A stretch of 64,000 nucleotides of DNA from Acidobacteriota bacterium. GTDB lineage: Bacteria; Acidobacteriota; Holophagae; Acanthopleuribacterales; Acanthopleuribacteraceae. The notes under the pieces are model-generated. The model did no database searches and was not told the origin of the DNA. It saw nothing but the letters and a program-made list of their open reading frames with translations. This document shows, in pieces, positions 10,412 through 17,369 of the stretch; the first letter of the stretch is position 1, and the number at the start of each line of letters is the position of its first letter. Both the position numbers and the translations under genes were made by a program. The stretch is from contig JAGQSC010000021.1 in assembly GCA_020439745.1 (NCBI GenBank), forward strand, positions 310,001-374,000, written 5' to 3'.

Positions 10412-11746
10412 TTACAGCGTTCGTCGCATCTGGAGGATCTTGAGGAAGCTTCGGGTACGAAACTCCTCTTCCGAGAGCCCCGTTGCCAGTAATTCGTCCG
10501 CATCGATGGCGCCACAACCGAAGGCTCTTAGGAAGAAATTCAACAGGCCTTGTCCTGTCGCTGCGTCGTCGAAGACGTCGCCAGAAAGGGTGGCTTTGGC
10601 GGCAGTGTCCATAAAGTTCCGCAACCTCGTGGTGGCTGCGTCCTTGGACTCCAGAAAGAAACTGAACACGGCGGCATACCTCGCCACGAACTGGGCAGGA
10701 TGGAGGTCCCAACCCTGATATATGCCGTGCCGAAGCGAGTGGCGCGTGTGGTCAAAGGCCAATTTCCAAGCTGCATGCACGACGTCTTGATTTTCTTGAA
10801 GCTGGGTGTTGGTCAGTTGTTCACTGCGATGAGGACCCACGGGCATGACATTGGTTGCGCCATCGGAGATCAATACACCCGTTCCAGCTAGAGTCACCTT
10901 CATGACATGGCGCGCAAAATCGCAGGCGGGGTGGTCCATCGACTGCCAAGCAGCCGTTATATCCATGGACGCGGTGTAATCATAGGTTCCGAAATGGGCG
11001 CCACGACATCGTCCACGAGCATTGGTGACCAGCGTTGGCAAAGCGCAGGCACCTTGCTGATCGAATATGGATTCAGGGGTTTCAACCATCAACTCCATGC
11101 AAAGTGCTCCGTTTTGGAGTCCCAGCATGGGCTCCATGGTGTCCATGATTTCGGCCAATGCGGTTACTTGTCCGGGATGGGTAATCTTGGGGAGGGTGAC
11201 GGTGAATCCATCGGGTAGTTGTTTGGTTTTTCCGATCAAGGTGGAGAGAAACAGGTCGAGTGTTCGGATGGAACGCGCTTTCAATTCGTCATTAAACGGT
11301 TTGATCCGGATCCCAATAAAGGGTGATAGATCGTTTGATTGCATGGCATGGGCCAGGGCTTGTGCGGCTTTTATGGCGGTTGCGTCCTCTTCTTCGTCGG
11401 GTCGGTTGCCGAATCCGTCCTCAAAGTCGATGCGGAAATCTTCGACGGCTTCGGACGCCAATTTCTGTCCCACCTTGTCGTGCAGTCGTTGCGCCTGTTC
11501 CTGGCTGTAGTCAAGTCCCAAAGCCCGGCAAAGAGTGATGGCGTCTGGCGCGTAGGACGTAAAGGCTTGTCTTGCCATTTCGCCCAATCGGCGGATGGTG
11601 CGTTCCGAGAAGAGGTGAGCACCGCCATAGACTGTGTGAACGGGCTGGCGCCGGTCGGAAGGTCCTGGTTTGGCCGCTTGAGCATTGTCGCTTGCCAACC
11701 GATGATGGATGTGTTTTACAAAATCAGGATTCAGTGTGGTTTTCAC
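10412..11746 (-). CDS. CitE/malate-synthase-like TIM-barrel protein (DUF6986-like)
   Basis: The 444-residue protein has two motifs of the HpcH/CitE/malate-synthase superfamily. These are DFRIDFEDGFG near residue 105, an acidic metal-binding loop, and CMELMVETPESIF in the middle, the strand carrying the metal-ligand glutamate. I associate this family (DUF6986) with purine-degradation loci but cannot confirm that here. It starts with GTG two bases after the uraH stop, so it belongs to the ureide operon. Its place in the pathway suggests it acts on a glyoxylate-level product of allantoate breakdown, by lyase or condensation chemistry; this is inference. No true malate synthase or ureidoglycolate lyase was seen in the window. 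Confidence 0.7.
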   Translation of the reverse strand: MKTTLNPDFVKHIHHRLASDNAQAAKPGPSDRRQPVHTVYGGAHLFSERTIRRLGEMARQAFTSYAPDAITLCRALGLDYSQEQAQRLHDKVGQKLASEAVEDFRIDFEDGFGNRPDEEEDATAIKAAQALAHAMQSNDLSPFIGIRIKPFNDELKARSIRTLDLFLSTLIGKTKQLPDGFTVTLPKITHPGQVTALAEIMDTMEPMLGLQNGALCMELMVETPESIFDQQGACALPTLVTNARGRCRGAHFGTYDYTASMDITAAWQSMDHPACDFARHVMKVTLAGTGVLISDGATNVMPVGPHRSEQLTNTQLQENQDVVHAAWKLAFDHTRHSLRHGIYQGWDLHPAQFVARYAAVFSFFLESKDAATTRLRNFMDTAAKATLSGDVFDDAATGQGLLNFFLRAFGCGAIDADELLATGLSEEEFRTRSFLKILQMRRTL

Positions 11747-11748
11747 AA

Positions 11749-12078
11749 TTAGCTCCCGCGATAGGTTGAATAGCCATAGCCACTGAGGAGGAGTGGCACG
11801 TGGTAATGCTGTTGGGGGTCGACGACGTGAAACACGATTACGGCCATGGGATAGAAGGTCGGCCGTTTTTGGCTTTCAAAATAGGAACCTGTTTGGAACG
11901 TGATACGGTAGGTACCCTGCAGCAGTGGCTCAGTCATCCAGTCCCGTATCCGGCCATCGGCATCAGTGGTGCCTTGTCCCACCGCACGCCATGCCTCGCC
12001 TTGATGGTACTCGAGTTTGGCAGACATATGTGCGGCTGGTTTACCCAGTGCGGTATCCAGGACATGGGTGGTTATCAT
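11749..12078 (-). CDS. uraH: 5-hydroxyisourate hydrolase
   Basis: Transthyretin-like enzyme that hydrolyses 5-hydroxyisourate, the product of urate oxidation, to OHCU. It has 109 residues, normal for the family. It ends in the diagnostic tetrapeptide YRGS and begins with THVLDTALGKPA, which carries the conserved N-terminal histidine. The middle arginine motif is in DADGRIRDW. It overlaps the uraD stop as ATGA. Confidence 0.95.
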   Translation of the reverse strand: MITTHVLDTALGKPAAHMSAKLEYHQGEAWRAVGQGTTDADGRIRDWMTEPLLQGTYRITFQTGSYFESQKRPTFYPMAVIVFHVVDPQQHYHVPLLLSGYGYSTYRGS

Positions 12079-12560
12079 AGGAGTGGCTCCAAGCGAATAA
12101 GGGTAATCTTAAGTTGCTCTTGGGCGGCCAGCAACAATTCTTCAGATCGCGTGTGGTTCAGACGCTCTTTCAGAGCGGCCAGCATGGTCTCTGGGTCCAG
12201 GCCGGTGGCGCAGATGATGAAAATAAATCCGAATGTCTCGAAGTAGGTTTGGTTCAACTGGGCCAATTGACGAATGGTATCCGAACTGGCCTGGGCTATA
12301 CCCGATTGTTCCTTTTGGGACAAATCGGCACTGGCACCGAACTTTTCTCGTAACACCGCTTCTCCTATTCGCGGATGGTGGGAGAATGCTTCAAGCCAAT
12401 CAGTTTCTGAACATTGCATCCAAGTATCAGCAACCTGTTGACGGAACTTTGCCACGTCGGTCACTGGCAAATGTTGGGCTACCTTGTGGGCCCAGTTTCT
12501 TGAACCGCAACAGATCAAAAGATCTGCAACTGGATCAGAGGACCGGTTCAACTTAATCAC
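12075..12560 (-). CDS. uraD: OHCU decarboxylase
   Basis: Converts 2-oxo-4-hydroxy-4-carboxy-5-ureidoimidazoline to S-allantoin. The active-site histidine lies in SHHPRIGE and the catalytic glutamate in SQKEQSG; the C-terminal half has GFIFIICATG. I set the start at the GTG at 12560, because family similarity begins at LNRSSDPVADLL and the frame then gives 161 residues. This overlaps the end of alc by eight bases. The longer frame from ATG 12599 would overlap alc by 47 bases and has no ribosome site. It is followed by uraH with an ATGA overlap. Confidence 0.9.
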   Translation of the reverse strand: MIKLNRSSDPVADLLICCGSRNWAHKVAQHLPVTDVAKFRQQVADTWMQCSETDWLEAFSHHPRIGEAVLREKFGASADLSQKEQSGIAQASSDTIRQLAQLNQTYFETFGFIFIICATGLDPETMLAALKERLNHTRSEELLLAAQEQLKITLIRLEPLL

Positions 12561-13548
12561 AACGGCGACCCATGACTCTGAACCGACTAATGCCGCCATC
12601 GGGAAAAATATTCAGTCGAAGGTGTGTGAAAGGTCCACGATGTAGGAGTTCGGAAAAGATGTGCTCATGGTCAGCCCTTAGCTTCGATTCTCCCAGTACG
12701 GGAGACCAAATATCGGGCCGGTCGAGCGCTTTATGCACACCTGGACTGAGATTTGCCCCATCTACACTACAGCGGTCGGGGTAATTCCCTTTGAAGTGGG
12801 CGGTATCTACCACCAGATGATCCAGCTCCCCGCGTTTTCCCAGGGCAATGATCGCCCAATCGTGGCCCGGTCCTCGACGACGGCGCGTTTCCCAGCCATC
12901 ACCCATATCGGAACCGCGACCGGGCGCATTCATGTTGTCTTTATGGCCAAAATGCATGTCGCTGCACAGAATTACCTTACCCTCGTGGGTGACCGATGCG
13001 AGGTCAATTACAGCATCTTGCGGTATGGTGTCCCAATCGGCGCGTACCTCGCCAAACACGCGGAATCGCGCAACGCCCCCGTCGGGGTATATGTTCAGTC
13101 GTACATGTGTGAAGCGATCAGTGTTGTCGATCTCAAACAAATGTTGGCTACTAGGGCCGAGCGGCTGAGGCTCTAGGATGCATGTCCATGTCGTGTTCTC
13201 GTCTGGGTCATGTGGAAGGCAGGCGGCATCCACTGAAGCTTTGGTGGGCTGGTTACCATTGAAGTGATGGGTATCAATATCGAATCCGCGAATGCGACCA
13301 GAAAGGCCAAGTCGGATCCAGGCAAAATCGTGGCCCGGCTCACGCCTTCTCCTCGTCTCCCAGCCATCCATCCACTTGCCGGTGTCGACGTACTTGCCCG
13401 GGATGAAAATGGCCCGACCAGGCTTGATGAGGTTCTCCTTTGCTGCGAAGAATTCATCATTGGCGTAAAGTACTCGCGTGCCCAGACGTTCGGCAGCGAG
13501 ATTGATCCAACGGTCGGATAGGCGAGTGTTTTCCGGTTCGTGTTGCAT
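12553..13548 (-). CDS. alc: Allantoicase
   Basis: Hydrolyses allantoate to ureidoglycolate and urea. The 331-residue protein is a tandem duplication. Each half has a jelly-roll unit with a WETRRRR(E/G)PGHD segment and a closing strand, seen as THVRLNIYPDGGVARFRVFG and THLRLNIFPDGGISRFRVMG. This arrangement is the allantoicase fold. The gap to allB upstream is three bases and the end overlaps uraD, so all are one transcript. Allantoicase is the amidohydrolase route, which releases urea and not ammonia. Confidence 0.93.
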   Translation of the reverse strand: MQHEPENTRLSDRWINLAAERLGTRVLYANDEFFAAKENLIKPGRAIFIPGKYVDTGKWMDGWETRRRREPGHDFAWIRLGLSGRIRGFDIDTHHFNGNQPTKASVDAACLPHDPDENTTWTCILEPQPLGPSSQHLFEIDNTDRFTHVRLNIYPDGGVARFRVFGEVRADWDTIPQDAVIDLASVTHEGKVILCSDMHFGHKDNMNAPGRGSDMGDGWETRRRRGPGHDWAIIALGKRGELDHLVVDTAHFKGNYPDRCSVDGANLSPGVHKALDRPDIWSPVLGESKLRADHEHIFSELLHRGPFTHLRLNIFPDGGISRFRVMGRRCD

Positions 13549-13551
13549 GGT

Positions 13552-14868
13552 TTACCTCATAATCTTCTGGCCAATGGGCTGGTCGATAATCGTTCCCTCG
13601 TCGAAAATGCAGGTGCCACCCAACCATGTTTGTTTCACTTGCCCGAAAACGAGGCGATCCAGGTAGGGTGTCTCTTTGTGGCGGTGCCGAATGGAATCAA
13701 TTGTGATCCGCACTTGTTGCTCAGGATCCCAGACCACAAGATCGGCTCGATAGCCAGGCGCAATGCGTCCTTTGATGTCGCCCAATCCACACAGGACTGC
13801 TGGCGCGGCACTCATCCATTGAGCCAGTTGGTTTAAGCTGTAACCGCGATTGCGACATTCGGTCCAAACCAAGGGGAGGCTGAATTGGAGGGATGCAATG
13901 CCACCCCAGGCTTGTTCCAGATCTCCCCGTTCCAGTTCTTTGAGTGCAGGTAAGCACGGCGAGTGATCGGAAACGACCATGTCAATGACACCTTCTGCCA
14001 AACCTTGCCACAATGATTCGCGGTTGGCGTGCTCTCGAATGGGTGGGCAGCATTTATGGATGGGCGTTCCATCGGGAATGGTGTCCGCTTCTAGCACGAG
14101 GTAATGGGGACAGGTCTCGACAGAAAAGGGAAGTCCCTGGGACCGTGCCGTGCGAATGGCCGTAAGAGCCCCTGCATGGGAAAGATGCACGATGTGAACA
14201 CTCCCGCCTGTCTCGCGGCACAACGCAATCATCGTTTCGATCGCCTGTTGTTCCCAGTCAGGTGGCCTGGAGGCAAGGAATCGACGGTAACTACGGGCGT
14301 CTCCAGGCGGTACCTGCGCGCCTAGATCAAGTTCTGCATGGATCAGGTAAGGCTTTTTTGCATGGCGTAGGGTCGCAAGAGCAGGTCGCAAATGTGTCGC
14401 ATCCATGGGCGGAAACTCGGGGATTCCGGAATCGATCAGGAACGACTTCACACCCAACACACCAGCTTGCAGCAGCGCGGGCAAGTGGGGCAATGACTCA
14501 GGTACCACCCCGCCCCAAAAACCGCAGTCGACCCACATTTTTTCGCGAATGGCTTCCATTTTAAGGCGTAGTGCTTCAGCAGTGGTTGTGACCGGTAGAC
14601 AATTGAGGGGCATGTCCACCAGTGTGGTGATGCCACCGGCAGCAGCAGCCTGAGTGGCTGTGGTGTAGCCTTCCCAATCGGTGCGGCCCGGCTCATTGAT
14701 GTGCACATGGGTATCGACGATACCCGGCGAAATCGTCCAATGCCCCAGGTCAACTGCCTCGGGTATGCGGTTTGGTAGGACGTGCGTGATCGTGCCAGAT
14801 TCGATACAAATGGTGGCAGGTTCCACGCCACTTGGAGTCACGACTTGGTGACTGAAGAGTGCTCGCAT
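13552..14868 (-). CDS. allB: Allantoinase
   Basis: Cyclic amidohydrolase that opens allantoin to allantoate. The 438-residue protein shows the metal motif DTHVHINEPGRTDW near residue 51, the lysine that is carboxylated (GVKSFLIDSG), HAEL and HLSH for the second metal, and VSDHSPC with the catalytic aspartate. It is the first gene of the minus-strand ureide operon and is divergent from the urate oxidase, with 83 bases between the two starts. That spacer is the likely control point for the locus. Confidence 0.93.
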   Translation of the reverse strand: MRALFSHQVVTPSGVEPATICIESGTITHVLPNRIPEAVDLGHWTISPGIVDTHVHINEPGRTDWEGYTTATQAAAAGGITTLVDMPLNCLPVTTTAEALRLKMEAIREKMWVDCGFWGGVVPESLPHLPALLQAGVLGVKSFLIDSGIPEFPPMDATHLRPALATLRHAKKPYLIHAELDLGAQVPPGDARSYRRFLASRPPDWEQQAIETMIALCRETGGSVHIVHLSHAGALTAIRTARSQGLPFSVETCPHYLVLEADTIPDGTPIHKCCPPIREHANRESLWQGLAEGVIDMVVSDHSPCLPALKELERGDLEQAWGGIASLQFSLPLVWTECRNRGYSLNQLAQWMSAAPAVLCGLGDIKGRIAPGYRADLVVWDPEQQVRITIDSIRHRHKETPYLDRLVFGQVKQTWLGGTCIFDEGTIIDQPIGQKIMR

Positions 14869-14882
14869 TCAAGGCTCCGCAA

Positions 14883-14910
14883 TTGCACTATTTCTAAGGG
14901 CTGATAACAT
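14883..14910 (+). promoter_or_regulatory. Possible promoter for the urate oxidase gene
   Basis: In the spacer between allB and puuD a TTGCAC at 14883-14888 is followed 16 bases later by TAACAT at 14905-14910. These are partial matches to -35 and -10 boxes. They lie 41 bases before the GTG start. The spacer must carry both divergent promoters, but only this one could be suggested by eye. Confidence 0.25.
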
Positions 14911-14951
14911 AGGGCGAATCATCATGAACGCTTCATTAGAGGTGGGGTACC

Positions 14952-16544
14952 GTGTGGGCAAGTATACATGATTGGGCTGTGATTGTATTGCGTTGGCTGC
15001 ACTTGATTACGGCGATTACGTGGATAGGTAACTCCTTTTTATTCAACTGGATGGACCGGCGTTTCAACCGACGTGAGGAACGCACAGACGAAGGTTATTT
15101 AGGCGAATTGTGGATGGTTCACGGCGGTGGCTTTTACCAAGTGAACAAATTGAAGATGGGACCTGTCAGTGTCCCTTCAGGCGAGATGCTGCATTGGTTT
15201 AAGTGGGAGGCGGGCATAACTTGGCTCAGTGGGTTTCTGCTGTTGATTCTTGTGTTCTATGCCAGCGGCGTGACCTTTTTGGTGGATCCTGGTTCCGATA
15301 CGAGCTTGGGTGGTGCGGTGTTTGTTGGATTGTTCGCGTTGTTTGGCAGTTGGTTGGCTTACGATGCCATTTGGGAATCGCCGCTAGCGCATAAAGCAAA
15401 GTGGGGGCATGTAGCGACTGTGTTATTGGCATGCGTTGTAGCCTATGGACTTTGCCAATATTTTAGTGGTCGGGCCGCCTATATTCATATGGGTGCAGTG
15501 ATTGGAACGTGGATGGCAGCCAATGTTTGGATGCGTATCATTCCACGCCAAGTGAAGATGGTCGCCGCGATGGAGAAGGGTGAATCTGTCAATCCTCACT
15601 GGTCCGGCAACGCCAAGAATAGATCTGTCCACAATAACTACTTCACCCTGCCCTTGATCTTCATCATGATGAGCAACCATTTCCCCTCAACCTATGGTCA
15701 CAAACTGAATTGGGTCATTTTGATTTTGATTGGCATTTCGGGTGCTGCTATTCGTCACTACTTCAACGTGCGACACCAGCATGCATCCATTGGGGCGACA
15801 TGGCTACCAGCGGCCGCTTGTTTCTTGGTGGTATTTTGGATGACCGCAGAACGAAACGTAGACACAGAAAAACCGGCGGTCGAAGCCGCGGAGCTGTTTG
15901 TAGTGAATCCAGAAACCGCAGCGACGATTAGCGGCAGTGTATTGTATGAAGGTGAGCCCATCAAGCGAGGTAGTATTTCTCTGCCCCAAGAATGCGGGTC
16001 CCATGCGCGCAAGATACCGGCCCAATCCACGATTGTCGTCGATGGAAAAGTGGCGAACGCTTTGGTCTATGTAAGCCATGGACTGGAAGGCAAGCAATTC
16101 GCGATGCCGAGTGAGGTGGTAGAAGTGGATCAAGAGGGCTGTATGTATCATCCGCATGTAATGGGTGTACGTACCCATCAGGAAGTAGCTTTTCTCAACA
16201 GTGATGATGTCCTGCATAATGTGCGCGCAGATGCAGAATTGAATCAATCCTTCAATATTTCCATGCCCAACAAAGATTCCCGCATGACAAAGTCATTTGG
16301 CAAGGCCGAAGTGGCGGTGCACGTCAAGTGTAATCTACATCCATGGATGGGCGCATATATCGGCGTGTTTGATCATCCCTATTTTGCAGTGACCGATGAA
16401 ACAGGTGCTTTTGAATTAACGAGTTTGCCGCCGGGGACTTATGAATTGACCGTTTGGCATGAGACCTTGGGCACCACCCAGCAAACAGTCACTGTTTCGG
16501 AACGAGATGAGGTGCACACCCATTTCACATTGACACATAACTAG
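14952..16544 (+). CDS. puuD: Urate oxidase (PuuD type) fused to a cupredoxin-like domain
   Basis: Residues 1-~300 are the membrane urate-oxidase domain: about eight helices, with VHGGGFYQVNKLK at 56-68 and LHWFKWEAGITWLSG at 80-94, the hallmarks of PuuD. In known PuuD proteins a cytochrome c domain (CxxCH) follows. Here there is no CxxCH anywhere. Residues ~325-530 instead form an exported beta-rich domain. H422 (VLHNV), then C460, H463 and M466 in CNLHPWM, match the ligand set of a type I copper site as in amicyanin, and a PPGTYELTVWHE strand pair ends it. The protein should therefore hand electrons from urate to copper. GTG start with GAGGTGGG upstream. It is divergent from allB and next to all later steps of the pathway. 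Confidence 0.88.
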   Translation: MWASIHDWAVIVLRWLHLITAITWIGNSFLFNWMDRRFNRREERTDEGYLGELWMVHGGGFYQVNKLKMGPVSVPSGEMLHWFKWEAGITWLSGFLLLILVFYASGVTFLVDPGSDTSLGGAVFVGLFALFGSWLAYDAIWESPLAHKAKWGHVATVLLACVVAYGLCQYFSGRAAYIHMGAVIGTWMAANVWMRIIPRQVKMVAAMEKGESVNPHWSGNAKNRSVHNNYFTLPLIFIMMSNHFPSTYGHKLNWVILILIGISGAAIRHYFNVRHQHASIGATWLPAAACFLVVFWMTAERNVDTEKPAVEAAELFVVNPETAATISGSVLYEGEPIKRGSISLPQECGSHARKIPAQSTIVVDGKVANALVYVSHGLEGKQFAMPSEVVEVDQEGCMYHPHVMGVRTHQEVAFLNSDDVLHNVRADAELNQSFNISMPNKDSRMTKSFGKAEVAVHVKCNLHPWMGAYIGVFDHPYFAVTDETGAFELTSLPPGTYELTVWHETLGTTQQTVTVSERDEVHTHFTLTHN

Positions 16545-16626: not shown

Positions 16627-17307
16627 TTAGGCCGTTTGACGACGCTTAATGAACCACATACCCAACAGGGACAAACCTGCGATGAACGCGATGATCATGG
16701 CTGGGTTAAGCGCGGGAACCGGAGAGGCACCGCCGCCAGCAAAACTACCACCTGTGATGGTCAAGTCATAATCGCAACCGATTTCACCTGGGTTCGTGGT
16801 GTGCACGACAAGAATCAAGTCGTCTCCGGCTGCGAGATCGAAGCTAAAAGGTACTGGGCTAGGCGGTGTGCCACTGCTCATGCCCGGATCCGCAAGATAG
16901 TTGGTACAGATGTTCGCAGGGTCATATGAGTTAATGTAGGCGTTTACTTGCAAGTTGCAGGCCGTCATGGTCAACGTATCAAGCGTCACGTTGATACATT
17001 CGGAAACACCGCTGGTGTTGGTGAGGGTGTAGACGTCGGCAGCTCGCCCAGGAGTTGTATCAAAAATAAGGCAAGCTTTTGGGGCGCCACATGCTGACAC
17101 GACGAGGTTACGGTTCAAGCGACCGGTTTGAGTGGTACTGGTAGACATCGGCCAATTGCCGCCGCTACCCAAGGTGCCGTTTATGACAATTCCAGGTCCG
17201 CGGACAATCGGATGACCATTGGTTCCATCACCAACGTCAGATCGTTCGACTTGGCCAAATGCAAGTGCCCCGATTGCAATAATCATTGCAAATGTTAATT
17301 TTTTCAT
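16627..17307 (-). CDS. Secreted protein with C-terminal sorting-like signal
   Basis: The 226-residue protein starts with MKKLTFAMIIAIGALAFGQ, a clear signal peptide; GGAG lies eight bases before this ATG, so the in-frame codon at 17328 is not needed. The middle is beta-rich with paired cysteines and no known enzyme motif. The end reads VPALNPAM, then a hydrophobic helix, then KRRQTA. That three-part tail (short motif, helix, basic residues) is like IPTL-CTERM/PEP-CTERM sorting signals, though the motif is not exactly IPTL. It may be a surface-anchored protein. No sortase or exosortase gene is in the window. Confidence 0.65.
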   Translation of the reverse strand: MKKLTFAMIIAIGALAFGQVERSDVGDGTNGHPIVRGPGIVINGTLGSGGNWPMSTSTTQTGRLNRNLVVSACGAPKACLIFDTTPGRAADVYTLTNTSGVSECINVTLDTLTMTACNLQVNAYINSYDPANICTNYLADPGMSSGTPPSPVPFSFDLAAGDDLILVVHTTNPGEIGCDYDLTITGGSFAGGGASPVPALNPAMIIAFIAGLSLLGMWFIKRRQTA

Positions 17308-17369
17308 GGTTTTTACTCCAATCCCCATAGCAGTTATAAGTGAAGAAAACTGATCACATAAATTTTCTC

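Follow-up and report, generated by a model that had tools for sequence, protein, structure and literature searches.

The window, a 64,000-nucleotide stretch of an Acidobacteriota genome, carries at 14952..16544 (+) a gene for a 530-residue protein in which a PF06181 membrane domain is joined to a cupredoxin/transthyretin-like tail. The open reading frame starts with GTG and has a AGAGGTGG-type ribosome site ahead of it. Across an intergenic region of 83 bp (14869..14951) lies a divergent allantoin operon on the reverse strand. This encodes allantoinase AllB (13552..14868; TIGR03178, E 1e-160), allantoicase (12553..13548; TIGR02961, E 1e-127) and, each from a profile match, the OHCU decarboxylase UraD (12075..12599), the 5-hydroxyisourate hydrolase UraH (11749..12078) and a DUF6986 protein that is a conserved neighbour of urate genes (10412..11746). 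The genome also encodes the large subunit of a molybdenum hydroxylase of xanthine dehydrogenase type. A search of the genome for Uricase genes gave none, and as far as that enzyme type goes the fusion gene has the linkage that marks PuuD, namely to UraH and UraD genes with no other urate oxidase. DUF6986 (PF22484) recurred beside urate or allantoin genes at 9 of 15 loci as well as in both genomes that have the fusion, and the protein is probably involved in the metabolism of ureides or glyoxylate. On the other flank, 16627-17328(-) encodes a secreted-looking protein of 233 residues with no Pfam match, whose C-terminal hydrophobic stretch and basic residues resemble a sorting signal.

The initial annotation had suggested searching for this architecture across genomes. 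A search in depth of the Acidobacteriota, a Pseudomonadota sample and a plasmid collection, with one genome per species, found the same fusion in a single frame in Holophagae bacterium OFTM365 (JAJCXM010000003.1), which shares its genus with the window genome. This sister gene also starts with GTG, with GAGGTGA ahead, and is likewise divergent from an allantoinase, allantoicase, UraD, UraH and DUF6986 operon of the same order; the downstream pathway that the initial annotation had placed next to the oxidase gene is thus present in both genomes. The two proteins are ~65% identical overall (68% in the membrane part, 64% in the tail), and the linker between the parts has drifted to 23%. For the membrane part and the tail, respectively, pN was 0.21 and 0.26 and pS 0.78 and 0.87 (saturated); low pN against saturated pS in both halves indicates that both are under purifying selection. 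Just two genomes show the fusion and both are draft, which could point to two genes joined by an assembly or annotation error, but an independent genome with the same frame and neighbours at this level of identity, and with saturated synonymous sites, reduces the probability of such an error to almost nothing; an assembly chimera is ruled out by the second genome. The PF06181-cupredoxin fusion is narrow in distribution, being confined to one genus among those searched, and PF06181 itself was absent from all other genomes of the class (93 searched). A literature search of partial coverage found no paper describing a urate oxidase-cupredoxin fusion.

The membrane domain

Residues 4-297 (14961..15842, +) form a Urate_ox_N (DUF989) domain, matched by PF06181 with an E value of 7e-103 and a score of 344 bits (curated cut-off 26.9), over positions 2-294 of the 295 in the profile. 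Comparison with 39 family sequences showed that 35 of 36 near-invariant positions are kept, so the PuuD-like character that the initial annotation had assigned to this domain was borne out. The model has eight predicted transmembrane helices, as in PuuD, at residues 2-35, 84-103, 119-142, 149-170, 173-208, 215-241, 253-275 and 281-299. The eighth (15792..15848, +) is common to heme-tailed PuuDs and missing in tail-less PuuDs of the Acidobacteriota; it is followed by the poorly conserved linker, residues 300-322 (15849..15917, +). In the sequence, the loops that follow helices 1, 3, 5 and 7 are basic, in keeping with the N-out/C-out arrangement published for PuuD, which would place the tail in the periplasm. 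A structure search with the full model returned, among the top matches listed, relatives of the tail only.

The predicted copper domain of the tail

As the initial annotation had observed, the tail has no CxxCH; the profile search gave no cytochrome c match either, and instead detected CarboxypepD_reg at residues 467-528 (E 1e-9). The structure prediction that had been proposed for the tail was made with AlphaFold2 from an alignment of 41 sequences, plasmid proteins left out, and reached a pLDDT of 95.1. When compared with known structures by Foldseek and VIA-align, residues 387-473 matched plastocyanin (Z 13.1, 1.4 Å over 84 residues) and amicyanin (Z 12.3, 2.0 Å over 86 residues), and carboxypeptidase D-type transthyretin-like structures aligned 80 residues spread over the model range 324-530. 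In the model, then, a transthyretin-like domain (~320-380 + 474-530) is interrupted by a copper domain (~387-473), and the predicted tail is more than the cupredoxin described at first. The first transthyretin-like part, residues ~324-380 by structure alignment, lies at 15921..16091 (+), the inserted cupredoxin at 16110..16370 (+), and the second part, residues ~478-528 by structure alignment and the CarboxypepD_reg match, at 16383..16535 (+).

The predicted copper ligands are H422 (16215..16217, +), C460 (16329..16331, +), H463 (16338..16340, +) and, in the axial position, M466 (16347..16349, +), equivalent to H53, C92, H95 and M98 of amicyanin. Their assignment rests on structural and sequence alignment: a profile of residues 387-473 set them on the four ligand positions of amicyanin, and in these columns a Nitrosopumilus multicopper oxidase has the His, Cys, His and Met of its C-terminal cupredoxin. 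All four, together with C348 and C397, were invariant in the 41 homologous tails, which upholds the amicyanin-type ligand set originally read from the sequence. By fold and by its His/Cys/His/axial Met ligands the inserted domain is a type 1 cupredoxin with a predicted copper site. A CuA centre was ruled out because the C-terminal ligand loop, CNLHPWM, has one cysteine and CuA has two.

The initial annotation had also proposed that C397, H400 and H402 might form a metal cluster or contribute a disulfide. The three residues are where it put them, but the sister protein has D in place of H400 and several homologues have R in place of H402, a variation that makes an extra metal site unlikely. The disulfide option fared better: C397 (16140..16142, +) is as invariant as C348 (15993..15995, +), in the first transthyretin-like part, which suggests that the two are paired; a C348-C397 disulfide is the more likely arrangement.

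The tail has its fold and its four copper ligands in common with amicyanin and plastocyanin. It differs from them in being only ~20% identical, in its extra cysteine pair, in its insertion in another domain and, presumably, in not serving as a methylamine or photosynthetic partner. The resemblance to amicyanin is one of ligand set, and the tail is not filed as an amicyanin.

Tailed, tail-less and free relatives

The fusion protein resembles PuuD (Doniselli 2015, PMC4562309) in its eight-helix Urate_ox_N domain with the conserved residues, in having a periplasmic C-terminal redox domain, and in its urate operon. The difference is that PuuD has a cytochrome c in that position, whereas the fusion has a predicted type 1 cupredoxin set into a domain of transthyretin-like fold. 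CxxCH was present in 54 of 54 heme-tailed PuuDs from Pseudomonadota genomes and plasmids. In contrast, the 17 other full-type PuuDs of the Acidobacteriota end after the seventh helix, at ~275 residues, with neither the eighth helix nor a redox tail, although they share the membrane domain family, the pathway neighbours and the phylum of the fusion. They sit in complete urate operons (e.g., frame L050:7578-8408), and UraH and UraD genes were found in 12 of 15 of their neighbourhoods. A hidden, split cytochrome gene was rejected for these proteins, 13 of the 15 neighbourhoods having no CxxCH frame of at least 70 residues. The PuuD cytochrome c tail has been described as invariant (Doniselli 2015, PMC4562309); the tail-less Acidobacteriota proteins and the copper-tailed genus together contradict this. 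The tail-less PuuDs in complete urate operons show that the PF06181 domain does not strictly need a tethered redox domain.

A tree placed the fusion pair as the sister group of the heme-tailed PuuDs as a whole (100/99) and left the tail-less PuuDs outside; the eighth helix accompanies the tail in both tailed lineages. Since it has no CxxCH and no cytochrome c match, the protein is filed in the PF06181 family next to cytochrome c PuuD, as its sister, rather than among the cytochrome c urate oxidases. The initial annotation had described a cytochrome tail replaced by a cupredoxin. The absence of the heme tail and the presence of the cupredoxin stand; replacement itself does not follow, because the pair lies beside the heme-tailed clade, as its sister, rather than nested in it and the other Acidobacteriota PuuDs are tail-less. 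It is possible that a cupredoxin replaced an ancestral cytochrome, or two lineages may have gained different tails; the tree fits either. Missing heme c assembly was ruled out as the cause of a copper tail, because the genome of the window has c-type cytochrome assembly genes.

Free relatives of the tail, i.e., cupredoxin/CarboxypepD_reg proteins, occur in 107 of 199 Acidobacteriota genomes. They are co-linear with the whole tail at ~38-46% identity (E down to 1e-58) and have the four ligands and both cysteines. Unlike the tethered tail of the fusion, they are stand-alone, secreted proteins, several of them encoded beside cytochrome oxidase genes. The closest in the genome of the window (42%) lies directly upstream of COX1, which is followed by COX3, COX4, COX2 and SCO1, with c-type cytochrome genes preceding; six further Acidobacteriota relatives adjoin COX1 or COX2. 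These secreted proteins beside COX1 or COX2, at seven loci in all (e.g., L069:5618-6322(-)), probably use copper to carry electrons to heme-copper oxidases in the Acidobacteriota. Other free relatives adjoin short DUF989 genes, and at several of these loci there is a radical SAM gene as well. The tail family thus keeps two kinds of gene company: genes of respiratory electron transfer and, apart from these, genes for DUF989 membrane proteins.

Several further observations were made at these loci. In six genomes, short DUF989 genes are found no more than 3 kb from free cupredoxin genes, in several of them together with a radical SAM gene and in one with a chlorite dismutase-like gene, and one short DUF989 relative has a weak HemJ-like match (UPF0093, E 0.004) that is a lead only. 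Upstream of the cytochrome oxidase cluster at this L069 locus, L069:9353-12001(-) is an 883-residue frame in which a cytochrome bd subunit I-like domain is joined to a cytochrome c. In the genome of the window, a 468-residue frame (C63) has two tandem cupredoxin-like stretches.

A proposed route for urate electrons

From the computed domain content, fold, ligand set, conservation and gene context we infer urate activity, copper loading, and the flow and direction of electrons. The protein would be a PuuD-type integral-membrane urate oxidase with a periplasmic type 1 copper domain instead of cytochrome c, passing electrons from urate to copper and on to an oxidase, a reading to which we assign a probability of roughly three in four. 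By inference from PuuD, the eight-helix domain would oxidise urate on the cytosolic side of the membrane, where UraH and UraD would process the 5-hydroxyisourate that it forms. Helix 8 would put the C-terminus in the periplasm. Electrons would cross the membrane domain one at a time to the tethered cupredoxin, cycling it between Cu(II) and Cu(I), and the copper domain would hand them on, either to a soluble carrier or straight to a heme-copper oxidase, where oxygen would be reduced to water without H2O2. A choice between cytochrome c and a cupredoxin as tethered partner has a parallel in the copper nitrite reductases, of which RpNiR has a cytochrome c and HdNiR an azurin (PMC9358711). The enzyme is a different one, and its tether delivers electrons, whereas that of the fusion would accept them.

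For PuuD, electron transfer through the cytochrome c was inferred and superoxide scavenging was also considered (Doniselli 2015, PMC4562309). The copper tail might likewise be an accessory to a urate oxidase domain, e.g., disposing of superoxide from the reaction, and the tail-less relatives in complete urate operons suggest that it may be dispensable. On the other hand, relatives in the tail family are encoded with cytochrome oxidase genes, which fits electron carriage, and the occurrence of two unrelated electron carriers in one position argues for electron transfer; we consider an accessory role improbable, though it is the strongest of the competing explanations. Metal content bears on the electron-transfer reading too. 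A Bacillus cupredoxin of similar fold, found in the structure search, was crystallised with zinc (4hcg), which by analogy would count against the assumed copper loading, and the transthyretin-like domain in the tail has a fold often used for binding. A tail that holds zinc or no metal and serves in binding or assembly nevertheless seems quite unlikely given the match to amicyanin of four ligands invariant in 41 sequences across the phylum, and given the oxidase genes that neighbour free relatives.

A further doubt concerns the substrate. Short DUF989 proteins, which probably act on something other than urate, have genes for free cupredoxins and radical SAM proteins as neighbours, and not urate genes, and the fusion could in principle share such a substrate. 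We give this little credence, because the fusion falls with the full-length PuuDs in the tree, as the sister lineage to those with heme tails, keeps the conserved PuuD residues, and adjoins the downstream pathway in both genomes. More tentatively, and with the odds against it, Acidobacteriota DUF989 membrane oxidases might use cupredoxins generally as acceptors, fused as here, supplied by an adjacent gene in the case of some short DUF989 proteins, or free in the periplasm for tail-less PuuDs.

The fusion would be a known kind of enzyme with a tail type new to it, a predicted copper domain in place of heme. Because all known tailed relatives carry heme as cytochrome c, it is a natural part-swap that could show how this family disposes of its electrons. 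The 2015 study of PuuD left the choice between electron transfer and superoxide scavenging open, and an unrelated carrier in the same place offers a ready-made domain swap with which to decide it. For the organism, the fusion would link purine breakdown to respiration by a copper-dependent route, and would possibly be a urate oxidase free of both peroxide and heme c. Were cupredoxins indeed the general acceptors of these oxidases, much of the phylum would respire urate by way of copper, with no heme c at the first step.
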